A stretch of 31,842 bases of DNA from a virus. This document shows, one piece after another, positions 3,506-23,884 of the stretch (position 1 is the stretch's first letter; every line of letters starts with the position of its first letter). The notes beneath the pieces are model-generated. The model ran no database searches and had not been told where the DNA came from. It saw nothing but the letters and a program-made list of their open reading frames with translations. The stretch covers positions 1 to 31,842 of the IMG/VR virus record IMGVR_UViG_3300045741_000099. One strand, written 5' to 3'. A program made the translations under genes and the position numbers.

Positions 3506-4231
3506 TCACTCGCCGCCTTCACCGCCAGCGACGCGCTTCGCCCACGCACCCACTCCACCCGCGTCGTCGCCGTCGTCACCGCCACCCTCTGCGTCGTCCG
3601 CTTCGGGCTCGTCGTCGAGGCTCGGCATGAGCGACTTCACTTCCTCGAACGCTTCCTCCGCTTCGGCGTAGGCGCTCTGGAAGTCCTCGGCCATCTCGCG
3701 GATCTTGTCCGCCTTGTCGTCGTCCATGTCCGCGATCTTCTCGGCGAGCTTCTGCGCTTGCTCGATGGCCTTCTCGCACGCCTTCGCGGGCTTCTTCGCG
3801 TCGGGGATCGAGTCGGCGATGCGCTCTGCCTTGGCGAGCATCGACTCCAGCCCGGCAGCCTTGTCGGCCACCATCGTCTTCAGCTCCGGTCCCTGATGCA
3901 TCTCGGCGCCCGCTGCGTCCTCGGCAGCCTGCATCTCGGGTGTCTCGGCAAGCTCCTCGTCCAGTCCCTCGCCGGCTTCGTCATGGTCGGCGAGCGGCTC
4001 CTCGATGGGCTCGTCGTCGGTCGGCGGCTCGTCCTCGCTCGCGTCGTCTGCGTCGCCCGCCTCCATGTCCTCGGGTGTGACCTCGCTCGCGGCAAGCTGT
4101 TGAAGCTCGACCATCGTCTCGGGGTCGAGGTCGTCGGGCGAGATGACCGTCACCTCGTCGGCGTCCAGCCCTTCGGGGAGTGTTTCACCGGCCGAGATCA
4201 GGATGCTTTTGAGGAGGGGAACTTTCGCCAT
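3506..4231 (-). CDS. Acidic coiled-coil virion protein of unknown function
   Basis: I do not recognise this 241-residue protein. It starts best at ATG 4231, with GAGG nine bases upstream; an in-frame upstream codon at 4258 would overlap less plausibly with the tape-measure end. Residues 30-110 are extremely rich in Asp and Glu. Residues about 115-200 are a predicted helix or coiled coil rich in Lys, Glu and Ala. The C-terminus is again acidic and Gly-rich and ends with GVGAWAKRVAGG (residues 226-237), a motif that recurs in two other proteins of this window. The gene sits between tape measure and baseplate genes, where tail assembly or baseplate accessory proteins are expected. Strong charge could mean binding to a basic partner or acting as an assembly chaperone; that is inference. 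Confidence 0.7.
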   Translation of the reverse strand: MAKVPLLKSILISAGETLPEGLDADEVTVISPDDLDPETMVELQQLAASEVTPEDMEAGDADDASEDEPPTDDEPIEEPLADHDEAGEGLDEELAETPEMQAAEDAAGAEMHQGPELKTMVADKAAGLESMLAKAERIADSIPDAKKPAKACEKAIEQAQKLAEKIADMDDDKADKIREMAEDFQSAYAEAEEAFEEVKSLMPSLDDEPEADDAEGGGDDGDDAGGVGAWAKRVAGGEGGE

Positions 4232-7602: not shown

Positions 7603-10209
7603 TCACGCCGCTTCGGCGACGTTCACGCTCTCGCCGACGGTGGTTTCGAGCACGATGCTGTCCAGCGACGACAGCGACCGCACCTTGAGGATGAGCCGGA
7701 AGATGCCGAGCGCCAGCGTCTCGGCGGTGTTCCCGCTCTTGGAGTCGAGCAGGTAGCCGTCGATCCGGTTCCCGTTCACGAGCCCGGACATGAACGAGTT
7801 GACCTCGCTCGTGATGACGATGCGACGCAGCCGGGAGTTCAGCTTCTTGCCGAAGGACTTGAGCCGGTTCGCGAGCGTGTCCTCGATGAAGTCGGCCATG
7901 CGCCGCCGCGCGATGTTGCGGAGGTTCGGGAACACGCTCGGGTCCACGCTCGTCACGCCGCTCTGGATCGTCATCACGCCGTCGTCGATGCGAGGCGCTG
8001 CGATGCCGTTCGCGCGGAACGAGATGTAGTCCTCGATGGTGAGGTTCTGCACGTCGGGGTTGTTCGCCTCGATGCCGATGGCGCCCGCCATGTACGGCGT
8101 GTCCTGACCGGGGTTCTCCTCGGGCGGGAGCTGGCTCATACAGCTCACCTCGAAGCCGTCGAAGGGAACGTCCAGCACGCCGTCGGCGGTGAAGCCCGCG
8201 CCGCCCGCGAGGCCGAGCCGCGCGATCTGCGAGATGAACGTCTGCACGCCGGGGAAGGCGTAGACGACGCGCTGATCGCGGTAGGCGTTCACGCCCGGAG
8301 CTACCGGCCCCTCCGCGATGGCGCGCGTGGTCGTGCCGAGCGGCGGGCGAATCACGGTCATGCGACCGAAACACCCGTTCGCTGATGCGTCGATCACGTT
8401 CTGACGGAGCGCGTTCCGCACCGCGTTCGATGCGCGAGCGGACCAGATGAAGTTCGCCAGCTTCGCGACGCTGTTCAGGTTCGTCGTGGTGTTGATCGCA
8501 TCGATGTAGGCGGCATCGATGGCGGCGTCCGTGAGCGCAGCGTTGATGCCGACCGGGTTCGTCACGGTGAAGTCCGCGTTCGGGATCGGGAACGGGATCA
8601 CCGTCAGCGTGGAGACGGCAGCCGAGCCGGCCGTTCCGTCATCCGTCGAGGGACGGACGCGCACGCTGTACGGGCCAGCGTTGCCGGCCGCGACGCTGAT
8701 CGTCTGCATCGTGACCCACTCTTGAGCGGTCGCGTTGCGGACGCGCGTGCCGGCGGGGATCGACATGGCGACGTTCGCGTTCGCCGTGTACTGGAGCGGC
8801 ACGTCACCGGGAAGGAAGCCGAAGACCGCGAGCAGCGCGCTCGCCACGCCGCCGACGACGCGGAAGTTCCCGCCGTTCACGCGGCCCGAGAAGGTGTTGT
8901 ACGCGCCGTGGTTCGTCATGCAGGCGAAGCCCATCGCCGCGTTGATGCGTGCCGCGACCTGAGCCGCCGTCTGGTCGAGCGCGGTGAACAGCACGGTCAC
9001 GTTCGGGCCGCTGTCCACGCCGAGCGTCAGCGTCTCGCCGCCCGCGAACAGAGTGGGATAGGTGCCCGTGTTCGTGACGAGCTTGCCGAAGCCGTTCGGC
9101 TGGTCGGACATCGCGCCCATGCTGATCTGAGTTGCGCTGATCTGCGGCGCTCCGAGATCGAACCCGAGCCCCGTCGCCTGCGCGAACGAGAACGTCGTGT
9201 TGATACAGCCGAGCAGCGTGATGCCGCTGCCGGCGACGGCGTGCATGCGCAGGTTCCCGCCCGCGTCGCGGTCGAACGCCACGTTGCCGATGGAGCCCGC
9301 AACGATGTTCACCTCGGACATCGTGACCGCCGTGATGTCTGCGACGGAGCCGGTGCCCGACGTGACGCCGACGACGGCGTTGAGCGCGGTGAGCACGAGC
9401 GCATCGGCCGAGACGATGTTCACGTTCGCGCTCGTTCCCACGACGCGGCTGGTGAACGTCGTGGTGAGCAGGGCGACAGCGGCGCAGGTGAAGCCGAGCG
9501 CGGCGTTGATGCGCGCCACGACCTGAGCGTGCGTCTGATCCGCAGCCGTGAACGTCACCGTCACGGGGCCGACCTGTCGAGGCGTGCCCTGATCGATGGT
9601 GATCACCATCTTCTCGCCGCCGACGAACGTGGTCGGGTAGACGCCGTTGCCCGTCGTGTAGACGGCAGCCGCCGCGTTGAACGTCCCACCGAACGTCGTG
9701 ATCGCCGTGTCGTCGCCGTAGAAGTAGGAGAGCACGTCGCCGGGGTTGAGCGCGAACGTCGGCAGGTTCGAGCCGAGCACCGCAGCCTGTCGCGTGAACT
9801 CGACCGAGCCGACGCTCGTGTCCGCGCGAGCGACGATCAGGTTCTTGAACCGCTTGTTGGCGAGCGCGATGAACCCGTTCCCGTTCCAGTGCTCGGGCGT
9901 CAGCGCACCGTCGGCGAAGCGCGTGCGAGCGCAGGGATTGTTTCCCTGGACGCCGCCGTAGGTGTAGCCGAAGCCGCCGAAGCGCGTGAGCAGGTCGCCC
10001 GCGCCGCTCACCTCGCTCGGCCCGCCTCCAGCGATCACCGAGTCGGCTGCGAAGGGACCGTCCTCGAACTCTGCGACGAGGAGCGCGGTGCCAGTGCCGA
10101 CACCTGCGATTGAAGCCGGCGGCTCCAGATCGAGGATGTTCACGCTCTCGATGTCGAGGAGAGTTTCGTTGCCGGGGTCTGCGAGGAAACGACGGATGAA
10201 GTTCGCCAA
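7603..10209 (-). CDS. Contractile tail sheath protein
   Basis: This 868-residue protein has the sheath layout. The N-terminus has the segment PASIAGVGTGTALLVAEFEDGPF (split here: PASIAGVGTG at about 31-40, then a strand and DGPF), typical of the inner sheath domain. The C-terminal third carries the conserved sheath core: a linker NPDVQNLTIEDYISFRANGI, then DGVMTIQSGVTS (about 743-754), then PNLRNIARRRMADFIEDTL, a pattern of a strand, the arm, and the last helix common to P2 FI and T4 gp18. Residues about 180-540 are a large beta-rich insert holding two related modules. The start is TTG 10209, with GGGAG eight bases upstream and no in-frame ATG nearby. At 868 residues it is much longer than P2-type sheaths (about 390), owing to the insert, which would lie on the outer tail surface. 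Confidence 0.9.
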   Translation of the reverse strand: MANFIRRFLADPGNETLLDIESVNILDLEPPASIAGVGTGTALLVAEFEDGPFAADSVIAGGGPSEVSGAGDLLTRFGGFGYTYGGVQGNNPCARTRFADGALTPEHWNGNGFIALANKRFKNLIVARADTSVGSVEFTRQAAVLGSNLPTFALNPGDVLSYFYGDDTAITTFGGTFNAAAAVYTTGNGVYPTTFVGGEKMVITIDQGTPRQVGPVTVTFTAADQTHAQVVARINAALGFTCAAVALLTTTFTSRVVGTSANVNIVSADALVLTALNAVVGVTSGTGSVADITAVTMSEVNIVAGSIGNVAFDRDAGGNLRMHAVAGSGITLLGCINTTFSFAQATGLGFDLGAPQISATQISMGAMSDQPNGFGKLVTNTGTYPTLFAGGETLTLGVDSGPNVTVLFTALDQTAAQVAARINAAMGFACMTNHGAYNTFSGRVNGGNFRVVGGVASALLAVFGFLPGDVPLQYTANANVAMSIPAGTRVRNATAQEWVTMQTISVAAGNAGPYSVRVRPSTDDGTAGSAAVSTLTVIPFPIPNADFTVTNPVGINAALTDAAIDAAYIDAINTTTNLNSVAKLANFIWSARASNAVRNALRQNVIDASANGCFGRMTVIRPPLGTTTRAIAEGPVAPGVNAYRDQRVVYAFPGVQTFISQIARLGLAGGAGFTADGVLDVPFDGFEVSCMSQLPPEENPGQDTPYMAGAIGIEANNPDVQNLTIEDYISFRANGIAAPRIDDGVMTIQSGVTSVDPSVFPNLRNIARRRMADFIEDTLANRLKSFGKKLNSRLRRIVITSEVNSFMSGLVNGNRIDGYLLDSKSGNTAETLALGIFRLILKVRSLSSLDSIVLETTVGESVNVAEAA
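8845..9072 (-). repeat. Sheath insert module 2
   Basis: Residues about 380-455 read NTGTYPTLFAGGETLTLGVD, then VLFTALDQTAAQVAARINAA, MGF and a strand pair ending in GRVNGGNFRVVGG. It matches module 1 in order and spacing: Y-P-T-x-F-x-G-G-E, a strand, D-Q-T-x-A-Q-V, A-R-I-N-A-A and a closing strand with R-V. Confidence 0.7.
9394..9654 (-). repeat. Sheath insert module 1
   Basis: Residues about 186-272 of the sheath read TGNGVYPTTFVGGEKMVITI, then VTFTAADQTHAQVVARINAA, GF and a short strand pair ending in RVVGTSANVNIV. The same plan recurs in module 2, so this is an internal duplication at protein level. Confidence 0.7.
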
Positions 10210-10913: not shown

Positions 10914-11458
10914 TTGCTCAACGCTCGCTCGACTTCACGAGCGACCTCCTCTGTGACGAACTGCGCGAGGTTCTTGTTCGCCTTCTCCATGATGCGAAGG
11001 CCGGTGCCCTTGAAGATGCCCTTGCCGCCGCCAGCCTGCACGCCACGACTCGTCTTCACGCTCGACGCCATCGCGGTCGCGACGGCCCATGCCATGCGTG
11101 TCGCGTCGCCTCCCTTGGCGAAGCCCTTGATCTTCACCCACTCGGTCAGCGCGAGCAGCATCTTGCGGCTCACCTTGACGTTCTGCGGGCGCACGCCGAA
11201 CTCGATGATCGCGGCGTAAGGGAGCGGGTTGTCGTAGCTCGCGCCGTCGTGCTCTTGCTGAGCCTTCCATCCGGCCTTGTAGAGCCCGCGCTGCGACGGC
11301 TCGGGAACCGTCTGCGGGATCGTGACCGTCTGGATCTCCTGCACCATGCGGATCGCCGCCGAGTAGAGGCCGTTCATCGCGCCCTCTTTGATCGCCTCGG
11401 TCAACACGCCGCCGATGTGAGCACCCGCGTCATTGAGGGAGATGAGCGTCGCGGCCAT
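10910..11458 (-). CDS. HK97 gp10-like / neck tail-completion protein
   Basis: This 182-residue protein starts at ATG 11458 (ATGA overlap with the upstream gene). Its layout is that of gp10-like and P2 gpS-like completion proteins: a long N-terminal helix (LTEAIKEGAMNGLYSAAIRM, about 19-38), a cluster around NPLPYAAIIEFGVRPQNVKV (about 76-95) where the family has a 'Y-A-x-x-x-E-F-G' pattern, and a C-terminal helix ending VTEEVAREVERAL. The Y-A-x-x-I-E-F-G core is the main evidence. The middle is rich in Gly, Lys and Ala (GKGIFKGTGLRIMEKA). It would help join tail to head before the tail terminator acts. Confidence 0.65.
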   Translation of the reverse strand: MAATLISLNDAGAHIGGVLTEAIKEGAMNGLYSAAIRMVQEIQTVTIPQTVPEPSQRGLYKAGWKAQQEHDGASYDNPLPYAAIIEFGVRPQNVKVSRKMLLALTEWVKIKGFAKGGDATRMAWAVATAMASSVKTSRGVQAGGGKGIFKGTGLRIMEKANKNLAQFVTEEVAREVERALSK

Positions 11459-12048
11459 CAGCGCCTCCCTGGTAGCAGCCGTCCCCGGTTCACCACGTCG
11501 TCGGCGCCGTACATCGAACGCCCGTCTGGGCTGCGGTCCTCGTCCACGCGGTCGAGGATCAGGCTCCACGACACGGAGCCCTCGTCGCGCGACGGCGTGC
11601 CGAGCACGCGGAACTTCTGGCGCGCGGGATGATCGCTCACGCGATGGTCCTCCACGATCTCGTAGAAGAAGTCCCACGGCTGCTCGATGGGTTCGCCCGT
11701 CGGCGTGGCGGGTGGAACCTGCCCGAGCAACTCCTCGGAGGAGAACGTCGCGCTGATCAGCTCGACGCGCACCGAGCCGACGGGAAGGATGCCGGCCGCG
11801 TAGGGCGTGAGCGTGAGGTTCGTGAGCGCGCTGACCTTCGGCGTTGGCAGAAGCTCAACGCGAGCGACCTCGTACTCGTTGCCCTCACCGCGCTCGTATC
11901 CGCTGTACTTCGTCCACACGAGGAACACGCGGCGCGAGCGCAGGCCGAAGCGCGTGCTGAACTGCCGAAGCGAGTCCACGCGCGGAGCGAGGCGCTGCGT
12001 GAGCGTGCGCTTGGCTTCTGCGGGTGTGAGTGGACGCGGCTTCGGCAT
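11458..12048 (-). CDS. Probable head-tail connector or neck protein
   Basis: I do not recognise a family with certainty. The 196-residue protein starts at ATG 12048, four bases after the stop of the gene before it, and overlaps the next gene by ATGA. It is basic at the N-terminus (PKPRPLTPAEAKRTLTQRL), then beta-rich with a YSGYERGEGNEYEVARVELL stretch, a Pro-rich turn (GQVPPATPTGEPIEQPWDFFYEI) and a charged C-terminal half ending in GRLLPGRR. Its place between helical internal proteins and the gp10-like protein suggests a head-completion or neck role, as does its beta-rich nature. Confidence 0.5.
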   Translation of the reverse strand: MPKPRPLTPAEAKRTLTQRLAPRVDSLRQFSTRFGLRSRRVFLVWTKYSGYERGEGNEYEVARVELLPTPKVSALTNLTLTPYAAGILPVGSVRVELISATFSSEELLGQVPPATPTGEPIEQPWDFFYEIVEDHRVSDHPARQKFRVLGTPSRDEGSVSWSLILDRVDEDRSPDGRSMYGADDVVNRGRLLPGRR

Positions 12049-12051
12049 CGA

Positions 12052-12723
12052 TCATCCACCGGCTTTCTTCGCCGCCCACGATCCGAGCACACCACCGCTC
12101 GCCTTCTCAATCGCCTCGCTCACCTTCGCAACACCGGCCGCCGTGTTCTTCGGGTACGGGTGCGCCCTGCGTCCCTGTCCAGCCGCCGCTTCTTTGTGAC
12201 GAGCTTGTTCGCTGCGATGCATCCGTATTGCCGAACTCGACCCCGCGTGCCTGGCTGCTACGTCATGCGCTGCCGCCGCCGCCGTATGCGCCTCCGGTGT
12301 ATTCACCTTGTCCGCCACCTTGCTCGCGTTGCGAGCCGTCTCGGCATGTACGCGAGCCTGTTGATTCACTTCGCGCTCCGTCTGCGGGCGAGACGGTGGA
12401 GCGCCGATCCGTTCCGATGCTTTCTGCCCGGGGGCCTTCAGCGCCATCGCCTGACGCATGTGTTCCTCGCCCTTGGCGTGATGTACTTCGCGTAGGTGGT
12501 ACTCGTTCGCGTTTCCCATCTCGTTTCCGGCGTGACGATGCGCCACCGCCGCATCCCGATGTGACTCGTATGATGGAGCCCGTGTAGCCGCAGCAGTCGC
12601 GGCAGCCGCAGCCCGAGCCGCTTCGAGATGGATCGGCTCGGGTTGGCCGCCAGGACCCTTCTCGCTCGTGTGACCCTCATGCCAACGAGCCCATCGTTCC
12701 GCTGCGGTTTCTTCACTCGCCAT
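12052..12723 (-). CDS. Ala/His-rich helical protein, paralog 2 (virion-associated, unknown)
   Basis: The 223-residue protein begins with ASEETAAERWARWHEGH right after its Met, the same tag as the neighbouring 302-residue protein; the two are tandem paralogs. The body is a long Ala- and His-rich helical region with many short repeats of the type H-x2-A-x3-H (for example SHRDAAVAHRHAG at about 54-66, AAAHDVAARHAG at 150-161). It ends with GVLGSWAAKKAGG (residues 211-223), a motif also found in the 302- and 241-residue proteins. No enzyme motif is visible. His/Ala helices of this type could form coiled bundles; packaging inside the head or DNA binding is a guess. The start is ATG 12723, eight bases after the previous stop. 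Confidence 0.65.
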   Translation of the reverse strand: MASEETAAERWARWHEGHTSEKGPGGQPEPIHLEAARAAAAATAAATRAPSYESHRDAAVAHRHAGNEMGNANEYHLREVHHAKGEEHMRQAMALKAPGQKASERIGAPPSRPQTEREVNQQARVHAETARNASKVADKVNTPEAHTAAAAAHDVAARHAGSSSAIRMHRSEQARHKEAAAGQGRRAHPYPKNTAAGVAKVSEAIEKASGGVLGSWAAKKAGG

Positions 12724-12730
12724 GACTTAC

Positions 12731-13639
12731 CTACTTGAACTTGTCAGCGTGCTCTGCGGTCGGGACGAATCCACCAGACGGATGCTTTTCGATGTAGCCC
12801 GCTTTGAGCAAGCGGGTGATGTGCGGGTGATCGACTGAAGGAACACGCGACGGAATCACGCCGCCGTGTTTCTTCATCAGATCCTTTCCGGCGAAGATGT
12901 TCGTGCTGGTCGGCGTTCCCTTCGGAGCTTTCTCTTTCACGCCGATCTTCGCAGGCTTGCCGCCCGCTTTCTTCGCGGCCCACGCGCCGACTCCAGGTTT
13001 CGGCGTGAACAGCGCACGCGCTTGCGAAGCGTGCATGAAGGCTTTCCCCTCATGGAACTTCGCGCGCTCCTCGTGATACGCGGCGCGTGACGCGGCGCCC
13101 GTCATCCCGAGTCCCGTGTTCATGCGCTCTTTCGCAGCGGCGTCCTTGTGAACCATGGCAGCGCCGCCATGAATCTCAGAGGCTTTCTGATGCGTTTCCG
13201 AGGTGTCGTGTTTGAAGGCGTCTTCTGTCGCGCGACCCGCTGCTTCACTCGCTCGTTCGGTCGCTGTTCCAGCGTGCGTCCGCGCTTCGGTCGGAGTCGC
13301 CTTCGGGCTCCACCGTTGCTGCGCGGCTTCGAGATGACCTTTCGCAGCGGCCTCATGCCGATCAGCGTGATCACGATGATCTTGCGCGATGCGGAGTGAT
13401 TCCGGTGCGCCTTGCTTCTCAGCGGAAGACGCGGCGGCTCGGTGCATGTCGGCTGCGATCTCGTGAGCACGCGCGGCGCCCATGTGATCTTCTGCGTCCG
13501 CACCTTTCTTCTGCGTTTCCTTGCTGAGATTCCCCGCCGTCGTAGACGCCTTCCGAGCTTCGCTTCCACGACCGCCCGGCGCCTCGTGGCCTTCATGCCA
13601 GCGCGCCCATCGTTCCGCGGCCGTCTCCTCACTTGCCAC
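12731..13639 (-). CDS. Ala/His-rich helical protein with C-terminal winged-helix-like end, paralog 1
   Basis: The 302-residue reading begins at GTG 13639, just inside the end of the lipoprotein gene, and gives ASEETAAERWARWHEGH, identical to the tag of its paralog; this identity fixes the start. Residues 20-210 are Ala/His/Glu/Lys-rich helices with repeats such as HRDHADRHEAAAKGHLEAA (about 88-106). GVGAWAAKKAGG follows at 216-227. The last ~60 residues differ in character: TNIFAGKDLMKKHGGVIPSR, then HPHITRLLKAGYIEKHPSGG and FVPTAEHADKF, which resembles a winged helix (helix, 'I-x-R-L-L-K-A-G-Y-I', beta wing). DNA binding is therefore possible. No known family named. Confidence 0.65.
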   Translation of the reverse strand: MASEETAAERWARWHEGHEAPGGRGSEARKASTTAGNLSKETQKKGADAEDHMGAARAHEIAADMHRAAASSAEKQGAPESLRIAQDHRDHADRHEAAAKGHLEAAQQRWSPKATPTEARTHAGTATERASEAAGRATEDAFKHDTSETHQKASEIHGGAAMVHKDAAAKERMNTGLGMTGAASRAAYHEERAKFHEGKAFMHASQARALFTPKPGVGAWAAKKAGGKPAKIGVKEKAPKGTPTSTNIFAGKDLMKKHGGVIPSRVPSVDHPHITRLLKAGYIEKHPSGGFVPTAEHADKFK

Positions 13640-13955
13640 TGGAGGCCCCTGCGGCGCCCGCTGGCGCGCTTTCGGCTGAAGGGGCGAGCGCAGGCACCTC
13701 GGCCGAAGCGGAGGGCGCCACGGGGCAGGCAGGACGCAGCACGGCGCGACGTGCGGAGAGCAGGTGCTCCAGCCACGGCGCGAGGTCGGCTTCCGTCTCG
13801 CACGCGACCTTGACGGCTCCCTGCTCTGCCGAGAACAGCATGCAAGCCTCGCGCGCCACGTCGAGCGCGGTGCGAGTCGCGGCCTTCTCGGCAGCGGTGC
13901 AAGCCGCGACGATGAGCGCGGCAACGACGATGAGAATGGTGAGCGGGTGTTTCAT
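13629..13955 (-). CDS. Small phage lipoprotein
   Basis: The 108-residue protein has a signal peptide with a short basic start (MKH), a hydrophobic run (LTILIVVAALIVAA) and a lipobox VAAC with Cys19 as the lipidated residue. The mature part holds a short helical domain with two further Cys (residues 38 and 52 region) and a C-terminal tail rich in Ala, Ser and Pro. Such Ser/Ala/Pro tails are common in lipoproteins of high-GC Gram-negatives. In phages, small lipoproteins act as superinfection blockers (T5 Llp, phi80 Cor) or as the outer-membrane half of a spanin (Rz1, also Pro-rich). No inner-membrane spanin partner is seen nearby. It is an odd gene to find among neck genes, and the function cannot be fixed. 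Confidence 0.7.
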   Translation of the reverse strand: MKHPLTILIVVAALIVAACTAAEKAATRTALDVAREACMLFSAEQGAVKVACETEADLAPWLEHLLSARRAVLRPACPVAPSASAEVPALAPSAESAPAGAAGASSGK

Positions 13956-13961
13956 GGTGCC

Positions 13962-14360
13962 TCAATGGTGGACAGGGATGTTCACGCCGCCACTCTCGAA
14001 ACGCTTGTCGAACGGGTTCGGGTACACGCCGAGCAGGTTCGCGAGGCTCTTGCGCCAGTATTGATACTCGACGCGAAGCTCCTTCATCTCGGTTCCGCGA
14101 ACCTTGATCTCGCCGACCTCGTTCACGGCGAGCAGCTCGCGGTCGGCGTTCATCTGGTCCTCGATGCAGTCGAGGATGCCGAGGTGACGACGCACTTCGG
14201 GCTCGGCTGGTACGAGCACGAGATCCATCGCGCGCTCGATGATGAACTGCGTCTCGACGGCTTGCGGCACGCCGAGCACGAAGGTCGCGGACGCGGCGAC
14301 GTTCAGGAACCCGAGGTGGTGCCTGATCTTCACCTTCTCCTCTGCCGTGAAGCCTCGCAT
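13962..14360 (-). CDS. Conserved-looking head-tail region protein, unknown
   Basis: This 132-residue helical protein starts at ATG 14360 with an ATGA overlap to the gene before it. It contains KVKIRHHLGFLNVAASATFV near the N-terminus, an acidic middle with a single Cys, and a C-terminal segment EYQYWRKSLANLLGVYPNPF then DKRF. The end 'R-x-x-L-A-N-L-L-G-V-x-P-N-P-F-D' looks like a conserved feature of a phage neck family, but I cannot name it. Its place after the capsid module and before the neck genes fits head completion or an adaptor. Confidence 0.55.
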   Translation of the reverse strand: MRGFTAEEKVKIRHHLGFLNVAASATFVLGVPQAVETQFIIERAMDLVLVPAEPEVRRHLGILDCIEDQMNADRELLAVNEVGEIKVRGTEMKELRVEYQYWRKSLANLLGVYPNPFDKRFESGGVNIPVHH

Positions 14361-14930: not shown

Positions 14931-15494
14931 TCAACGCACGCCGAAGTCCGCTGTCGCTACGGCGCCGAGCATCGTGTCGAGTTCGTTCGCGTTGCAGCAC
15001 GCATCCGGGTGGATCATGCCGGGGTCGTCGCCATCCGTGCGGAAGTCCACGAGGTCGCAGCCGCCTTGCTCGCTGAGCCTGCCCTGCTCGTCGCACTTCG
15101 CGACGAAGTGCCGACACCGCTTGCACGACCAGCCGGCGCCCGCCGGGTTGTTCTGGTAGCCGCTCTGGATAGGCGTGATGAAGTCGAGCGGCTTGGCTTG
15201 CGCGCTGAGCTTCGGCTGGCCGTAGAGCCAGAACGAGCACGAGCCCGTCGCCAGGATCTCCACGTCGGGTCCGTGCGCGATGCAGCGGCGCGTGTCGCTG
15301 ATCCAGCTCGGACAATCGCGGCACTCGTACTGCGTCTGGTAGCCGGTGCTGAGCGGCTGACGTGAACCCTGGTGATCAGGGTAGACGTGCAAGTAGACGA
15401 CGCCCTGCTTCGACACCCGCCCGGAGGCGGCTTCGACTTGCAGAGCGTCGTCTTCTTCACCGACGACGCGCGCCGCCCATAGCGCGAGTCCCAT
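14931..15494 (-). CDS. Cysteine-rich putative metal- or Fe-S-binding phage protein
   Basis: The 187-residue protein has ten Cys in its last two thirds, in two clusters: Cys58, 61, 71, 86 and Cys124, 127, 134, 146, followed by the pair 166-167. Both begin with C-x2-C (CRDCPSW and CKRCRHF), then a third Cys after 6-9 residues and a fourth after 11-14, so the module appears doubled. This is a metal-site pattern: zinc ribbon or high-potential iron-sulfur-like. A phage tail tip iron-sulfur protein is known in lambda (gpL), but this gene lies next to the capsid genes. The start is ATG 15494 with a GAGAG ribosome site. Structural or redox role unknown; family not named. Confidence 0.65.
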   Translation of the reverse strand: MGLALWAARVVGEEDDALQVEAASGRVSKQGVVYLHVYPDHQGSRQPLSTGYQTQYECRDCPSWISDTRRCIAHGPDVEILATGSCSFWLYGQPKLSAQAKPLDFITPIQSGYQNNPAGAGWSCKRCRHFVAKCDEQGRLSEQGGCDLVDFRTDGDDPGMIHPDACCNANELDTMLGAVATADFGVR

Positions 15495-15506: not shown

Positions 15507-16046
15507 TCAGCCGATGACGAGCCAGATGACGGTGCTCGTGTCGAGGGCGTTCGAGCTGTTGATGGCGAAGCTACCGGGGGCGCCGACCACCTTCGAGCCG
15601 GTGGACAGCGAGCCAGGAGTCCCGCCAGCGAGCCCGCTCGGGAACGCCATCACGACGCTCGCCGCCGTGATGTTCGCCGCGACGCTGACGGTGCCAGCGA
15701 CGAGGACCGCCGTGCCCGTCTGCACGCTCGCCTTCGGCACGGCAGCGTTCGCGGTGGCCTGAGCTGCGGCGGCTGCCGCCGTCGCGCTCGCGCCGGTCGT
15801 CTGCTGGTTCTGGTCGAGCGCGCCGTCCATGATCTCGGCCATCGTGGTCGGCTCGCCGCCACGCAGCCGAATGGACTGCGCTTGAGCTGCCGCCGCGACG
15901 AGCGCGGGAGTGGACGCGAACAACTGACCGCCGACGCTCTGGAGCGCGGCGATGGTCGTCGCATCCGTCACGGAGTCGAACGCCTCGCCCGCGTAGTGGG
16001 ACTGAGTGCCGAGCTGGACGTTGTTGATGAGGTACTGCGTTGACAT
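15507..16046 (-). CDS. Ala/Thr-rich structural-type protein after the major capsid gene
   Basis: The 179-residue protein starts at ATG 16046, with AAGGAG about eight bases upstream; a longer in-frame start at 16094 would overlap the hairpin. After an N-terminal region (STQYLINNVQLGTQSHYAG) comes an Ala/Thr-rich helix (residues about 100-117), then beta strands with Val/Ala/Gly (VQTGTAVLVAGTVSVAANIT) and an ending TSTVIWLVIG. The VLVAG-type C-terminal half looks like domains common in tail fibres or head decoration proteins. Position directly after the capsid gene suggests head decoration or a head fibre. Confidence 0.6.
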   Translation of the reverse strand: MSTQYLINNVQLGTQSHYAGEAFDSVTDATTIAALQSVGGQLFASTPALVAAAAQAQSIRLRGGEPTTMAEIMDGALDQNQQTTGASATAAAAAAQATANAAVPKASVQTGTAVLVAGTVSVAANITAASVVMAFPSGLAGGTPGSLSTGSKVVGAPGSFAINSSNALDTSTVIWLVIG

Positions 16047-20774: not shown

Positions 20775-21002
20775 ATGGCCGAACGCATCACGACCTACGA
20801 CATCGACGAGGAGAACCCGACCGTCGCCTTCGAGTACAAGGGCAAGCGATACGGGCTCGACAAGTACGACGCGCTCTTTGAGAAGGGCGCGACGCTGGAC
20901 ACGATCTTCTACGTTCTGAAGAACGGCTCGAAGGTGTGCCCCGGAAAGTTCACGAGCAGCACGGACGACATCAAGATCGTGGACGACATCGGCTACATCT
21001 GA
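20775..21002 (+). CDS. Small acidic hypothetical protein, plus-strand cassette gene 2
   Basis: The 75-residue protein starts with ATG 20775, eight bases after the first cassette gene. It has alternating short strands and acidic patches (TTYDIDEENPTVAFEYKGKR; TSSTDDIKIVDDIGYI), and one Cys. No family is recognised. The last 10 bases overlap the convergent end of the large minor head gene (stop at 20993-20995), so the 3' ends of opposite transcripts would be complementary there. It could be a small partner of the first gene. Confidence 0.65.
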   Translation: MAERITTYDIDEENPTVAFEYKGKRYGLDKYDALFEKGATLDTIFYVLKNGSKVCPGKFTSSTDDIKIVDDIGYI

Positions 21003-23884
21003 TCCGGCGGAACTTCTTCGAGAGTCATGTACGCCGTGCGCTGGCGATTGTCTGGCGTCGTCAGCTTCTCAACCTTCAGAACGCGATACCGGATGCCGGG
21101 ACGTAGAACGATCTCGCGCTCGGCTTGATCGGTGCCTGAGTGCGTCTCGATGGCGATTCGGTTGCTCGCCGTCTTCGGGTTCAACTTGAACCGAAAGATG
21201 ACGGCATACCCGTCTTGCGAATTGCCGTACTTGTCCGTGATCGTCTGACCAAACTTGTCGTTCGCTTTCCCTTCCACTCCGAAGCCTTTCGCGACGGACG
21301 GGTTCCAACTCGTCGATGTCACGGCTTCAGTCTGGAACTCGGGCAAGTTGATGATGCCGTCGAACGCTTCGCGCGGGAGATGTCCGATCCCTCGGAAGAT
21401 GTCCGTGACCTTCGCCTCATGCTGAGAAGCGAGCGGCGTGTTCTTACCGCTCGCCACTTCCGCGTCGATTCGCTCGAAGGCTTTGATGATCGTCTCATGC
21501 GCTTTCTTCGCGGACTCGAAGGTGTACGACCCCGATCCATATCGCTCGTGCTTCTTCTTCCACTCGTCTTTGGAGAGCCGAACGGAATCGCGGATCGGGC
21601 CGTAGCTTGAGCCCGAGTAGGAGACGATCTTGCGGAACGCATCAAGCTCGTTGTGCTTGAGAGATTCCATCTTCGCGTGCGTCGCCTGCTCGTACCACGC
21701 GCGATCTTGATCCAACCCCATCGGCTTCAAGATTGAGCCGTGTGCGTTCCCCGGAAGTTGCGCGGTCGGCAATGACTCGAAGATGACCTTCGGGCGTTCC
21801 GGTTGAACGACTCCACCGGCTTTCTTTCGCGCTCGGTATTCGCGCGACGCTTTCGCCTTCGCAGCTTTCAACGCCGCAGCCTTCTCGTCGCTCGTCGCGG
21901 ACGTAGGAAGCGGAGGCGGCGGCGCAGCGGCGACCGCCTTCTCAACGGCAGCGACTTCGAGCTTCGCCTCTTGCATCGCGAGATGCTTCTCAAACAGGAA
22001 CTTCGTGCGCTTCTCCAGCATCGAAGCGACCTTCGCGCTCGACTCGGCGTTCAGCTCCGGTGCGTTCTCGCTGATGTACTCCTTCCACGTTCCGTACTTC
22101 TTCTTCAGCTTCACGATGTCGCGAATCTGGTTGTCGAGTCCCGTGATCTGCTCGGCGCTCGTGTACCCGGCCAGCTTCGCGACGCCAGCGTAGTCCTTGT
22201 TGCCGGGGCTGAAGAAGTGCTCCCATTCGGTCGGGTTCTCCAGCAGGTGTGTCGGCTTCGGCGTGCCTTGCGCGCGGTAGAGAAGCGAGCCGCCCGTGTC
22301 GATGCGAACCGGCTTCCCGCCCGGCGTCACGACTACGTTGTCGAGCCCCATGCCGACGGCATCCCAGTTCATCACGAGCACGTCGGCGGCGAAGCCGTCC
22401 ATGAGCTTCTTCGCGACCTCCGGGCTGTTCGCGCTGCTCAACTTCTTGCCTTCGACGATCTCACTCGCGTAGGCGAGCTTTCCAGTCGGGAGCTTGAACA
22501 GTTCACTACTCGACGCGCCGACGTTCAGATCGTTGTAGATCCGGTTCGTCAGGTCTTCGAGCATCGCCTGTTCTGGGTTCGCGTAGAACTTGACGTACCG
22601 CTTCACACCATCGGTGCCGAGGTACATCCCGCCCTGATTGCTCCCGGCCTGTTCGCCGATGAGCTTGCCGAGGATGACCTCGTGCCGCTCCATCTCGGGT
22701 ACGGGCTCGGGCTCGATGGCGGGCTCAGCGACGGGCTCAGGAGCGGCGTAGACGGGCTCGGCGGCGGGAACGGGCTCGGGTTCGGGGATGACCGTCGGAG
22801 GCTCCACGTCGCTCAATAGAGGCGCTTGCGGCTGCTCGGGTGAAGCCGTCGTCGCCGTGATGGACGGAGCCTTGCCGAACTGGTCGAGCGGCACCGTCGT
22901 CATCTTCGGACGCGGTGGCGGCGAACCCTTGTTCCCGTCGGCGGTCCAGCGCGCGTGAACTTCCGAGTCATCGCGCCACTTCAGCGACGGAGGGATCGCC
23001 CACGAGATGCGATGCGGCACCACGATCTCGCGGTCGTTCGGTCGGTTCGGCGGGTGCTGGTACAAGCCACCCGCCCACTGGAAGGCTTCATTCGGACGAC
23101 GGATCTGCCCGTGGACTTGGTACGAGTCCCATCCCGTGCGGTCATCGAACGTCGCGCAGAGGATCTTCACCATGTCGTCGAGCACGTCATTGGCGGCGCG
23201 AATCGACTCCCACCCGGCGCGGTTGTACGCGCCCATGGATTCGGTGCGAACGATTCGCTCGGCCCAATGCGCGGGCGCTCCTTGCAGGAACGGCGACTTC
23301 GCGATGAGGTCACTCCGCACGTCGGACCACGGCTGACCCTGAATCATCCCGAGCTTGAGGCGGTCCTCGAAGTCTTCGACGACGTTCAAGCCGTAGCGTT
23401 GAAGGATTCCCTTCTTCGCGTGTAGCGCAGCGATGCCGGGCTCGGGTGTCGCGACCATTCGACGAAGGATGCTCGCTTGCGCGCCCGAGTGCGCCCTGTC
23501 GAACATCATCGCCTCTTTCAACGGAAGCCGCGCACCGATGCCGTGGAACTTCTCCTCGGACGCTTGCAAGAAAGCGTGCGTCCCGCTCGCCGCCGCGTCG
23601 GCCGCGATGTGCGCTTGATTCGTGAGCGTGTCACCGATCCCGCTCGTGAGTCCCTTCAGCGTGTGCTCGATCTGCTGCATCGTCAGCTTGAGCTGCGTCG
23701 CGGTGAAGCTGTCCTTGCCGGGACCGGACAAGCCTTGAGCTTGGATGAGTCGCTGGTTGAGTTCCTGTTGCGCTCGTTGAAGCGTCTTCTTCAGGTGACT
23801 CGGCCCGACCACGTTGGCGATGCGTGCCGCCTCCTCTCGATTGCGTCGGAGGATCGTAAGCGGATCTGGCGCCGTCGCGGCCAC
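20993..23884 (-). CDS. MuF-type minor head protein fused to kinase-like and ADP-ribosyltransferase domains
   Basis: The 963-residue protein follows the portal, starting at GTG 23884 three bases after its stop. Residues about 100-300 are an SPP1 gp7 / Mu F head morphogenesis domain, with WAERIVRTESMGAYNRAGWE and FDDRTGWDSYQVHGQ, then HPPNRPNDREIVVPHRISW. A Pro/Glu/Ala-rich linker follows (about 350-397). Residues 400-545 look like a kinase-like (HipA/PI-kinase-type) domain: Gly-rich start, KFY lysine (K432), NWDAVGMGLDNVVV (D508, N516) and RIDTGG (D529). After a helical, Lys-rich region, residues about 735-960 form an ADP-ribosyltransferase exoenzyme domain of the R-S-E class: R831 in TDIFRGI, S857-T858-S859 in VTSTSW, and E922-R923-E924. 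The ExE form is usual for arginine modifiers. The protein should sit in the capsid near the portal, so its effector parts could be injected with DNA. Confidence 0.88.
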   Translation of the reverse strand: MAATAPDPLTILRRNREEAARIANVVGPSHLKKTLQRAQQELNQRLIQAQGLSGPGKDSFTATQLKLTMQQIEHTLKGLTSGIGDTLTNQAHIAADAAASGTHAFLQASEEKFHGIGARLPLKEAMMFDRAHSGAQASILRRMVATPEPGIAALHAKKGILQRYGLNVVEDFEDRLKLGMIQGQPWSDVRSDLIAKSPFLQGAPAHWAERIVRTESMGAYNRAGWESIRAANDVLDDMVKILCATFDDRTGWDSYQVHGQIRRPNEAFQWAGGLYQHPPNRPNDREIVVPHRISWAIPPSLKWRDDSEVHARWTADGNKGSPPPRPKMTTVPLDQFGKAPSITATTASPEQPQAPLLSDVEPPTVIPEPEPVPAAEPVYAAPEPVAEPAIEPEPVPEMERHEVILGKLIGEQAGSNQGGMYLGTDGVKRYVKFYANPEQAMLEDLTNRIYNDLNVGASSSELFKLPTGKLAYASEIVEGKKLSSANSPEVAKKLMDGFAADVLVMNWDAVGMGLDNVVVTPGGKPVRIDTGGSLLYRAQGTPKPTHLLENPTEWEHFFSPGNKDYAGVAKLAGYTSAEQITGLDNQIRDIVKLKKKYGTWKEYISENAPELNAESSAKVASMLEKRTKFLFEKHLAMQEAKLEVAAVEKAVAAAPPPPLPTSATSDEKAAALKAAKAKASREYRARKKAGGVVQPERPKVIFESLPTAQLPGNAHGSILKPMGLDQDRAWYEQATHAKMESLKHNELDAFRKIVSYSGSSYGPIRDSVRLSKDEWKKKHERYGSGSYTFESAKKAHETIIKAFERIDAEVASGKNTPLASQHEAKVTDIFRGIGHLPREAFDGIINLPEFQTEAVTSTSWNPSVAKGFGVEGKANDKFGQTITDKYGNSQDGYAVIFRFKLNPKTASNRIAIETHSGTDQAEREIVLRPGIRYRVLKVEKLTTPDNRQRTAYMTLEEVPPDQM

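Follow-up and report, generated by a model that had tools for sequence, protein, structure and literature searches.

Two Short Tags Shared by Diverse Proteins at a Hypervariable Phage Locus Suggest Accessory Virion Cargo

Introduction

Why should two adjacent phage genes encode proteins that begin with the same peptide and then differ over almost their entire length? We encountered this arrangement in a virus record (IMGVR_UViG_3300045741_000099), which we analyzed as a whole; "the window" denotes its full length of 31,842 nucleotides (31.8 kb). This sequence covers part of the genome of a soil-type phage with a contractile tail (myophage) and encodes a terminase, a portal, a MuF-domain protein, a major capsid protein (MCP), a sheath, and a tape measure protein (TMP). 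The two genes, A and B, lie in the head–tail connector region. They are bordered upstream by a 132-amino acid gene (neck132, 13962–14360, minus strand) with a weak PHROG match to virion structural proteins, and downstream by a conserved, uncharacterized 196-amino acid gene (g196, 11458–12048, minus strand). The genes further downstream are uncharacterized and tail-completion-like.

A precedent exists in phage T4, where the internal proteins IPI, IPII, IPIII, and Alt are diverse and have only a targeting sequence in common (PMC3012670). For A and B, the initial annotation had proposed that the identical N-terminal peptide is functional, for example as a capsid-targeting signal.

Architecture of A and B

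The two open reading frames that had been reported to carry an identical N-terminal tag are indeed present, both on the minus strand and at the positions given here. Gene A (12052–12723) starts with ATG and encodes 223 amino acids, organized into the N-terminal peptide (tag I), a flexible Ala-rich region, a three-helix Ala/His domain, and a tryptophan-containing motif (the WA motif) at the C terminus. Gene B (12731–13639) starts with GTG and encodes 302 amino acids, comprising tag I, Ala/His-rich helices, the WA motif, and a C-terminal extension (residues 228–302; 12734–12958, minus strand). Its reading frame overlaps by 11 bases with that of a small lipoprotein-like gene immediately upstream (13629–13955, minus strand), the product of which features a signal peptide and a Cys.

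Both proteins are basic (pI 9.6–9.7), and their bodies contain 20–24% Ala and 7–8% His. The earlier designation of A and B as paralogs holds for the tags but not demonstrably for the bodies, whose alignment is no better than that of shuffled sequences (z = 2.0, the best shuffle scoring above the real pair). Neither protein matched a family above cut-off in PHROGs, Pfam, NCBIfam, or PADLOC, in agreement with the earlier statement that they belong to no recognized family, and no MuF, portal, or known effector domain was found in either chain with PHROGs, Pfam, or NCBIfam. A tblastn search of B against the phage record collection gave no match. An assignment of A to HEPN_AbiU2 was discarded, the Pfam match (16.8 bits) being below the cut-off of 26.8.

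AlphaFold models of A and B, which rest on shallow alignments, have mean pLDDT values of 67.2 and 65.5, respectively, with low confidence outside a single region of A. This region (residues 116–182; 12178–12378, minus strand) is confidently predicted as a three-helix bundle (pLDDT about 95). A Foldseek search with the A model against viral and PDB libraries returned nothing significant, only generic helical bundles. The models place a short helix in tag I (residues 7–18 in A and 7–16 in B) and another at the WA motif. The C terminus of B had been described as winged helix-like; it shows no Pfam or PDB sequence match, its pLDDT is mostly 38–68, and the description is not upheld.

Selection on the N-terminal Tag

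Tag I comprises residues 2–18 of A (12670–12720, minus strand) and of B (13586–13636, minus strand) and reads ASEETAAERWARWHEGH in both, with 17 of 17 residues identical. At the DNA level, A and B use different codons at 9 of these 17 positions, always synonymously and never nonsynonymously (a scripted count, which took codons 2–16 only, gave 8 synonymous and 0 nonsynonymous differences). Because all codon differences are synonymous, selection acts on the peptide and not on the DNA. The view that the tag is functional, previously drawn from its identity, is thus strengthened by a signature of purifying selection.

This pattern also bears on the possibility that the shared ends merely serve as arms for recombination, or are left over from recent copying, and enable bodies to be swapped while the peptide itself has no function. 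Repeated ends would favor exchange, and the genes of a related contig described below resemble shuffled, internally deleted versions of A. However, the tag peptide of A and B is unchanged despite synonymous changes in more than half of its codons, and the WA motif is also kept at the end of a protein encoded outside the array, next to the tape measure gene. This explanation is already disfavored, and we consider it the least probable of those discussed here.

The exact tag I occurs nowhere else in the window. Strict and relaxed DNA scans detected tag I in its proper context on only one other contig; nine further matches from the relaxed scan lacked a start-proximal context and were taken as chance. 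Conservation in related phages, an expectation tied to the functional reading of the tag, therefore applies in part: the exact tag I is narrowly distributed, whereas the tagging strategy and the core of the WA motif are broadly distributed.

A Second Shared Motif

The second segment common to A and B, which was missed in the initial annotation, has the sequence [LV]G[SA]WAAKKAGG. In A it forms the C terminus (LGSWAAKKAGG, residues 213–223; 12055–12087, minus strand), and in B it precedes the C-terminal extension (VGAWAAKKAGG, residues 217–227; 12959–12991, minus strand). The general pattern is hydrophobic-x-x-W-A-x(4)-G, with hydrophobic-x-x-W-A as the common core. The W-A-x(4)-G part is present in tag I, in this second segment, in a further N-terminal tag of related phages (tag II, see below), and, in L022 and L023, ahead of a C39-type peptidase; in most of these copies, a hydrophobic residue precedes it at position −3.

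The motif was counted 17 times in 336 called proteins, compared with a mean of 3.1 and a maximum of 9 in shuffled sequences; this excess is descriptive, as the copies are partly homologous. A second, whole-genome count gave 14, while shuffled sequences averaged 4.4 and reached at most 12; some copies were counted twice where sequence pieces overlap. The loose form of the motif gives chance matches, as in L023 (14563–15081) and L028. We also considered that the WAAKKAGG codons might serve as an embedded ribosome-binding site and rejected this idea, since in B the motif lies within the gene and in the TMP-adjacent gene, which is unlinked, it lies at the end.

A Cys-rich accessory gene of the window (14931–15494, minus strand) carries a WA motif at its N terminus (LALWAARVVG, 15459–15488). 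The close relative L014 has no room for a counterpart at the corresponding place.

A Hypervariable Slot between Structural Genes

We compared the interval between neck132 and g196 among relatives found via their capsid and neck proteins. L039 has no gene in the slot; L005, L010, L012, L024, L025, and L040, among others, have a small lipoprotein there, which in several relatives is the sole occupant; and the more distant relatives L006, L008, and L009 have tag II proteins. The earlier description of A and B as accessory genes between neck genes is borne out by this comparison, which identifies the slot as a hypervariable accessory locus within the structural region. The recurrent lipoprotein is of the type encoded upstream of B (13629–13955) and has perhaps an envelope- or lysis-related role.

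On the L003/L014 contig, the MCP of which is 94% identical, the slot contains three tandem genes of 197, 121, and 117 amino acids. Their products start with variants of tag I (EETAAERWAAWH, EETAAERWTAWH, and EETATERWARWH), and each has a WA[AE]KKAG segment. The last gene looks like an internally deleted A, the first matches A over the latter's second half, and the second differs, so that by sequence comparison the three genes form a mosaic. Homologues of the Ala/His domain of A are encoded by these genes and by L022.

A second N-terminal Tag and Its Association with Enzymatic Domains

In several more distant relatives, unrelated bodies follow a different N-terminal tag. Tag II follows the pattern W-A … G-x-G … F-x-S-x-x-A … HPKADxSKHSV and is found on proteins encoded just after the capsid gene in L022, L023, and L029. 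It precedes a topoisomerase IB domain in L006 and L029 (9e-37 and 4.5e-28, respectively), a RelA/SpoT domain in L023 (2e-16), a body of unknown type, also in L023, and Ala/His-rich bodies in L008, L009, and L022. The tag II protein of L022 aligns with the Ala/His domain of A with z = 8.2 and with that of the L003 relative of A with z = 10.3. The domain of A is thus homologous to a tag II body, and the tag I and tag II systems serve like bodies. Tag II gave no tblastn match in the phage record collection and was absent from the genome collection.

The accessory nature of the slot would also suit proteins that are never packaged. According to this explanation, the tagged proteins act inside the cell as late-operon accessories in host takeover, superinfection control, or lysis control, and the tags mediate mutual assembly or binding to phage or host proteins. 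The slot does behave as a site for accessory genes, its small lipoprotein points to envelope or lysis functions, and the bodies of A and B are Ala/His helical bundles without recognizable enzymes. On the other hand, a similar tag precedes RelA/SpoT and stands beside C39 peptidase domains in a structural operon, virion-linked MuF and polyvalent proteins are known to carry RelA/SpoT as an effector domain (PMC5512222, PMC5576092), and a protein of the tail module also has the WA motif. We regard a purely intracellular role as unlikely, though as an alternative to be taken seriously.

The tag II genomes G001, G002, G005, and G017 encode a Peptidase_C39 protein, in which the WA motif always lies just before the catalytic domain. 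No Peptidase_C39 was found in ten other searched records that lack tag II or in the tag II fragment G016. This association raises the possibility that the WA motif, with its GG or GxG end, is a processing site akin to a double-glycine leader and is cut by the C39-type peptidase of the same cassette in related phages. However, the window record has the motif but no C39 gene (the record is a fragment, as are several others), and GG is missing from several copies of the motif (G004, G006, G007, G011, and G014). Moreover, the motif is often located at the extreme C terminus, where cleavage would remove almost nothing, and canonical leader residues are not apparent. Known double-glycine leaders of C39 peptidases are N-terminal and end in GG, whereas the WA motif of A and B is C-terminal or internal. 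Processing at the GG end is possible for tag II proteins; as a general explanation of the motif, we judge it improbable.

Unrelated phages (L035, L036, L037, and L038), one of them on a 512-kb contig, also have the HPKAD-type half of tag II, often preceded by a repeated LRSxxIxLAHxxPExRxxLLPLL segment; this half is thus a further end module that recurs. A third recurrent N-terminal module, MPLKxGSSxETIxxNI…GxPQxQAVAxAxxxA, is found before C39 and tag II proteins (L023, 10734–11576; the C39 gene of L027; and L022).

The Motif in the Tape Measure-adjacent Protein

The most constant carrier of the WA motif is encoded directly downstream of the tape measure gene (3506–4231, minus strand). The protein is acidic and variable and ends in VGAWAKRVAGG (3521–3553). 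A C-terminal hydrophobic-x-x-W-[AM] is present in the TMP-adjacent protein of all 11 genomes, which comprise whole and partial contigs of relatives, compared with a base rate of 2.5% for such an ending among 367 called proteins outside TMP-adjacent genes. The remainder of the protein evolves so fast that homology search recovered only 1 of the 11 records. In the distant named phages phiKX1 and Kromp, the gene adjoining the tape measure gene lacks a terminal WA motif.

When cargo copies of the motif were compared with the TMP-adjacent C termini, 7 of 9 placed that of their own genome at the top (p = 0.00025 by permutation of labels), in a test for which the motif was chosen post hoc, after inspection, and from which tag I was excluded. 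Within-genome duplication or copying could contribute to this similarity. Tag I itself matches the WA copy of its own genome poorly (rank 7) and may therefore be a separate signal. The correspondence between the tags and a tail-module protein of the same genome provides a directly testable partner.

The TMP-adjacent proteins of G001 (9355–9903, minus strand), G002 (38776–39297, plus strand), and G005 (65065–65643, plus strand) contain, besides the C-terminal WA motif, an additional internal acidic copy, EGALxDWAxEEE.

A Model for Tag-mediated Loading

The tags, the selection on tag I, the variable slot, the sharing of the motif, and its within-genome matching are read directly from the sequences; location in the virion, docking, and delivery of A and B are what we infer from them. 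We give an even chance to the reading that A and B, encoded in a hypervariable array, are accessory cargo of the virion and that their docking tags are portable. During particle assembly, tag I at the N terminus and the WA motif at or near the C terminus would provide docking signals through which bodies with nothing else in common are taken up, by analogy with the T4 internal proteins. The putative receptor would be a structural protein shared with the TMP-adjacent protein, whose C terminus carries the WA motif. The cargo would be held in the capsid or in the tail lumen, and the Ala/His bodies might have their role within the head or, just after infection, in the host cell.

The presence of the WA core in the TMP-adjacent proteins of the 11 genomes counts in favor of docking, and the place of that gene in the tail module counts against the head. 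Because the most constant carrier is a tail-module gene, the capsid-specific targeting originally suggested for the tag is not supported and stays unproven. The finding is nevertheless more interesting than first described, since the tags belong to a wider pattern. More tentatively, a short, portable docking code (hydrophobic-x-x-W-A), recognized in each phage by one virion protein with which it drifts, may load many unrelated proteins, among them TopIB, alarmone synthetase-like, C39-type peptidase, and Ala/His proteins, across a whole group of myophages, with the TMP-adjacent protein as constant client or adaptor; we hold this extension to be somewhat less probable than cargo status for A and B.

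Comparison to Known Systems

Like the T4 internal proteins, A and B and the three L003/L014 genes represent a highly diverse accessory set with a conserved short N-terminal sequence, for which loading into the particle is proposed. A strict T4-type mechanism, in which the N-terminal tag attaches to the scaffold core and a prohead protease removes it, would account for the N-terminal position of tag I, the variable bodies, the hypervariable locus, and the basic character of the proteins. It accords poorly with other features. The tag sequence appears unrelated to that of T4, and tag I is longer and tryptophan-rich. Each protein has two tags, the second being C-terminal in A and internal in B, and a tail-module protein bears the same motif. 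Pfam recognized no prohead protease in the window, including the genes between portal and MCP, although the window is a fragment and a protease could be too divergent for recognition. A and B have no PHROG, Pfam, or NCBIfam match that would suggest homology to the T4 system in this profile-based comparison. We therefore consider the strict mechanism very doubtful and prefer the broader reading of A and B as tagged cargo.

MuF and polyvalent proteins of phages are an established setting for RelA/SpoT domains, and both kinds of protein have been proposed to enter the particle and be injected (PMC5512222, PMC5576092). The phages described here likewise have RelA/SpoT-type effector domains among virion genes, and the window encodes a MuF protein. 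In contrast to polyvalent and MuF polymorphic toxins, A and B possess no MuF or known effector domain, and their delivery is proposed to depend on short tags rather than on a large virion domain. In crAss-like phages, capsid and tail alike serve as stores for phage-encoded cargo (PMC10172136), which makes a tail-linked docking motif physically plausible. Their cargo proteins are large and conserved, the passages considered describe no shared short tag, and the phages belong to an unrelated group.

Should the tags prove to be loading signals, they would allow searches for phage cargo that do not depend on known domains. Such searches would reveal delivered proteins with unknown folds in phages from metagenomes, and the tags would offer a short handle on how cargo enters the phage particle.

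Two other genes of the window deserve mention. The MuF-domain protein (20993–23884, minus strand; 963 amino acids) has a weak Phage_Mu_F match and long C-terminal regions without a family match; an ADP-ribosyltransferase-like C terminus, suspected by eye, gained no support from Pfam and PDB sequence searches and was dropped. A small gene after the capsid gene (15507–16046, minus strand) matches the Pfam family K1-lyase_C (9.6e-12), and its homologue in L017 sits in the slot occupied by A and B in the window.
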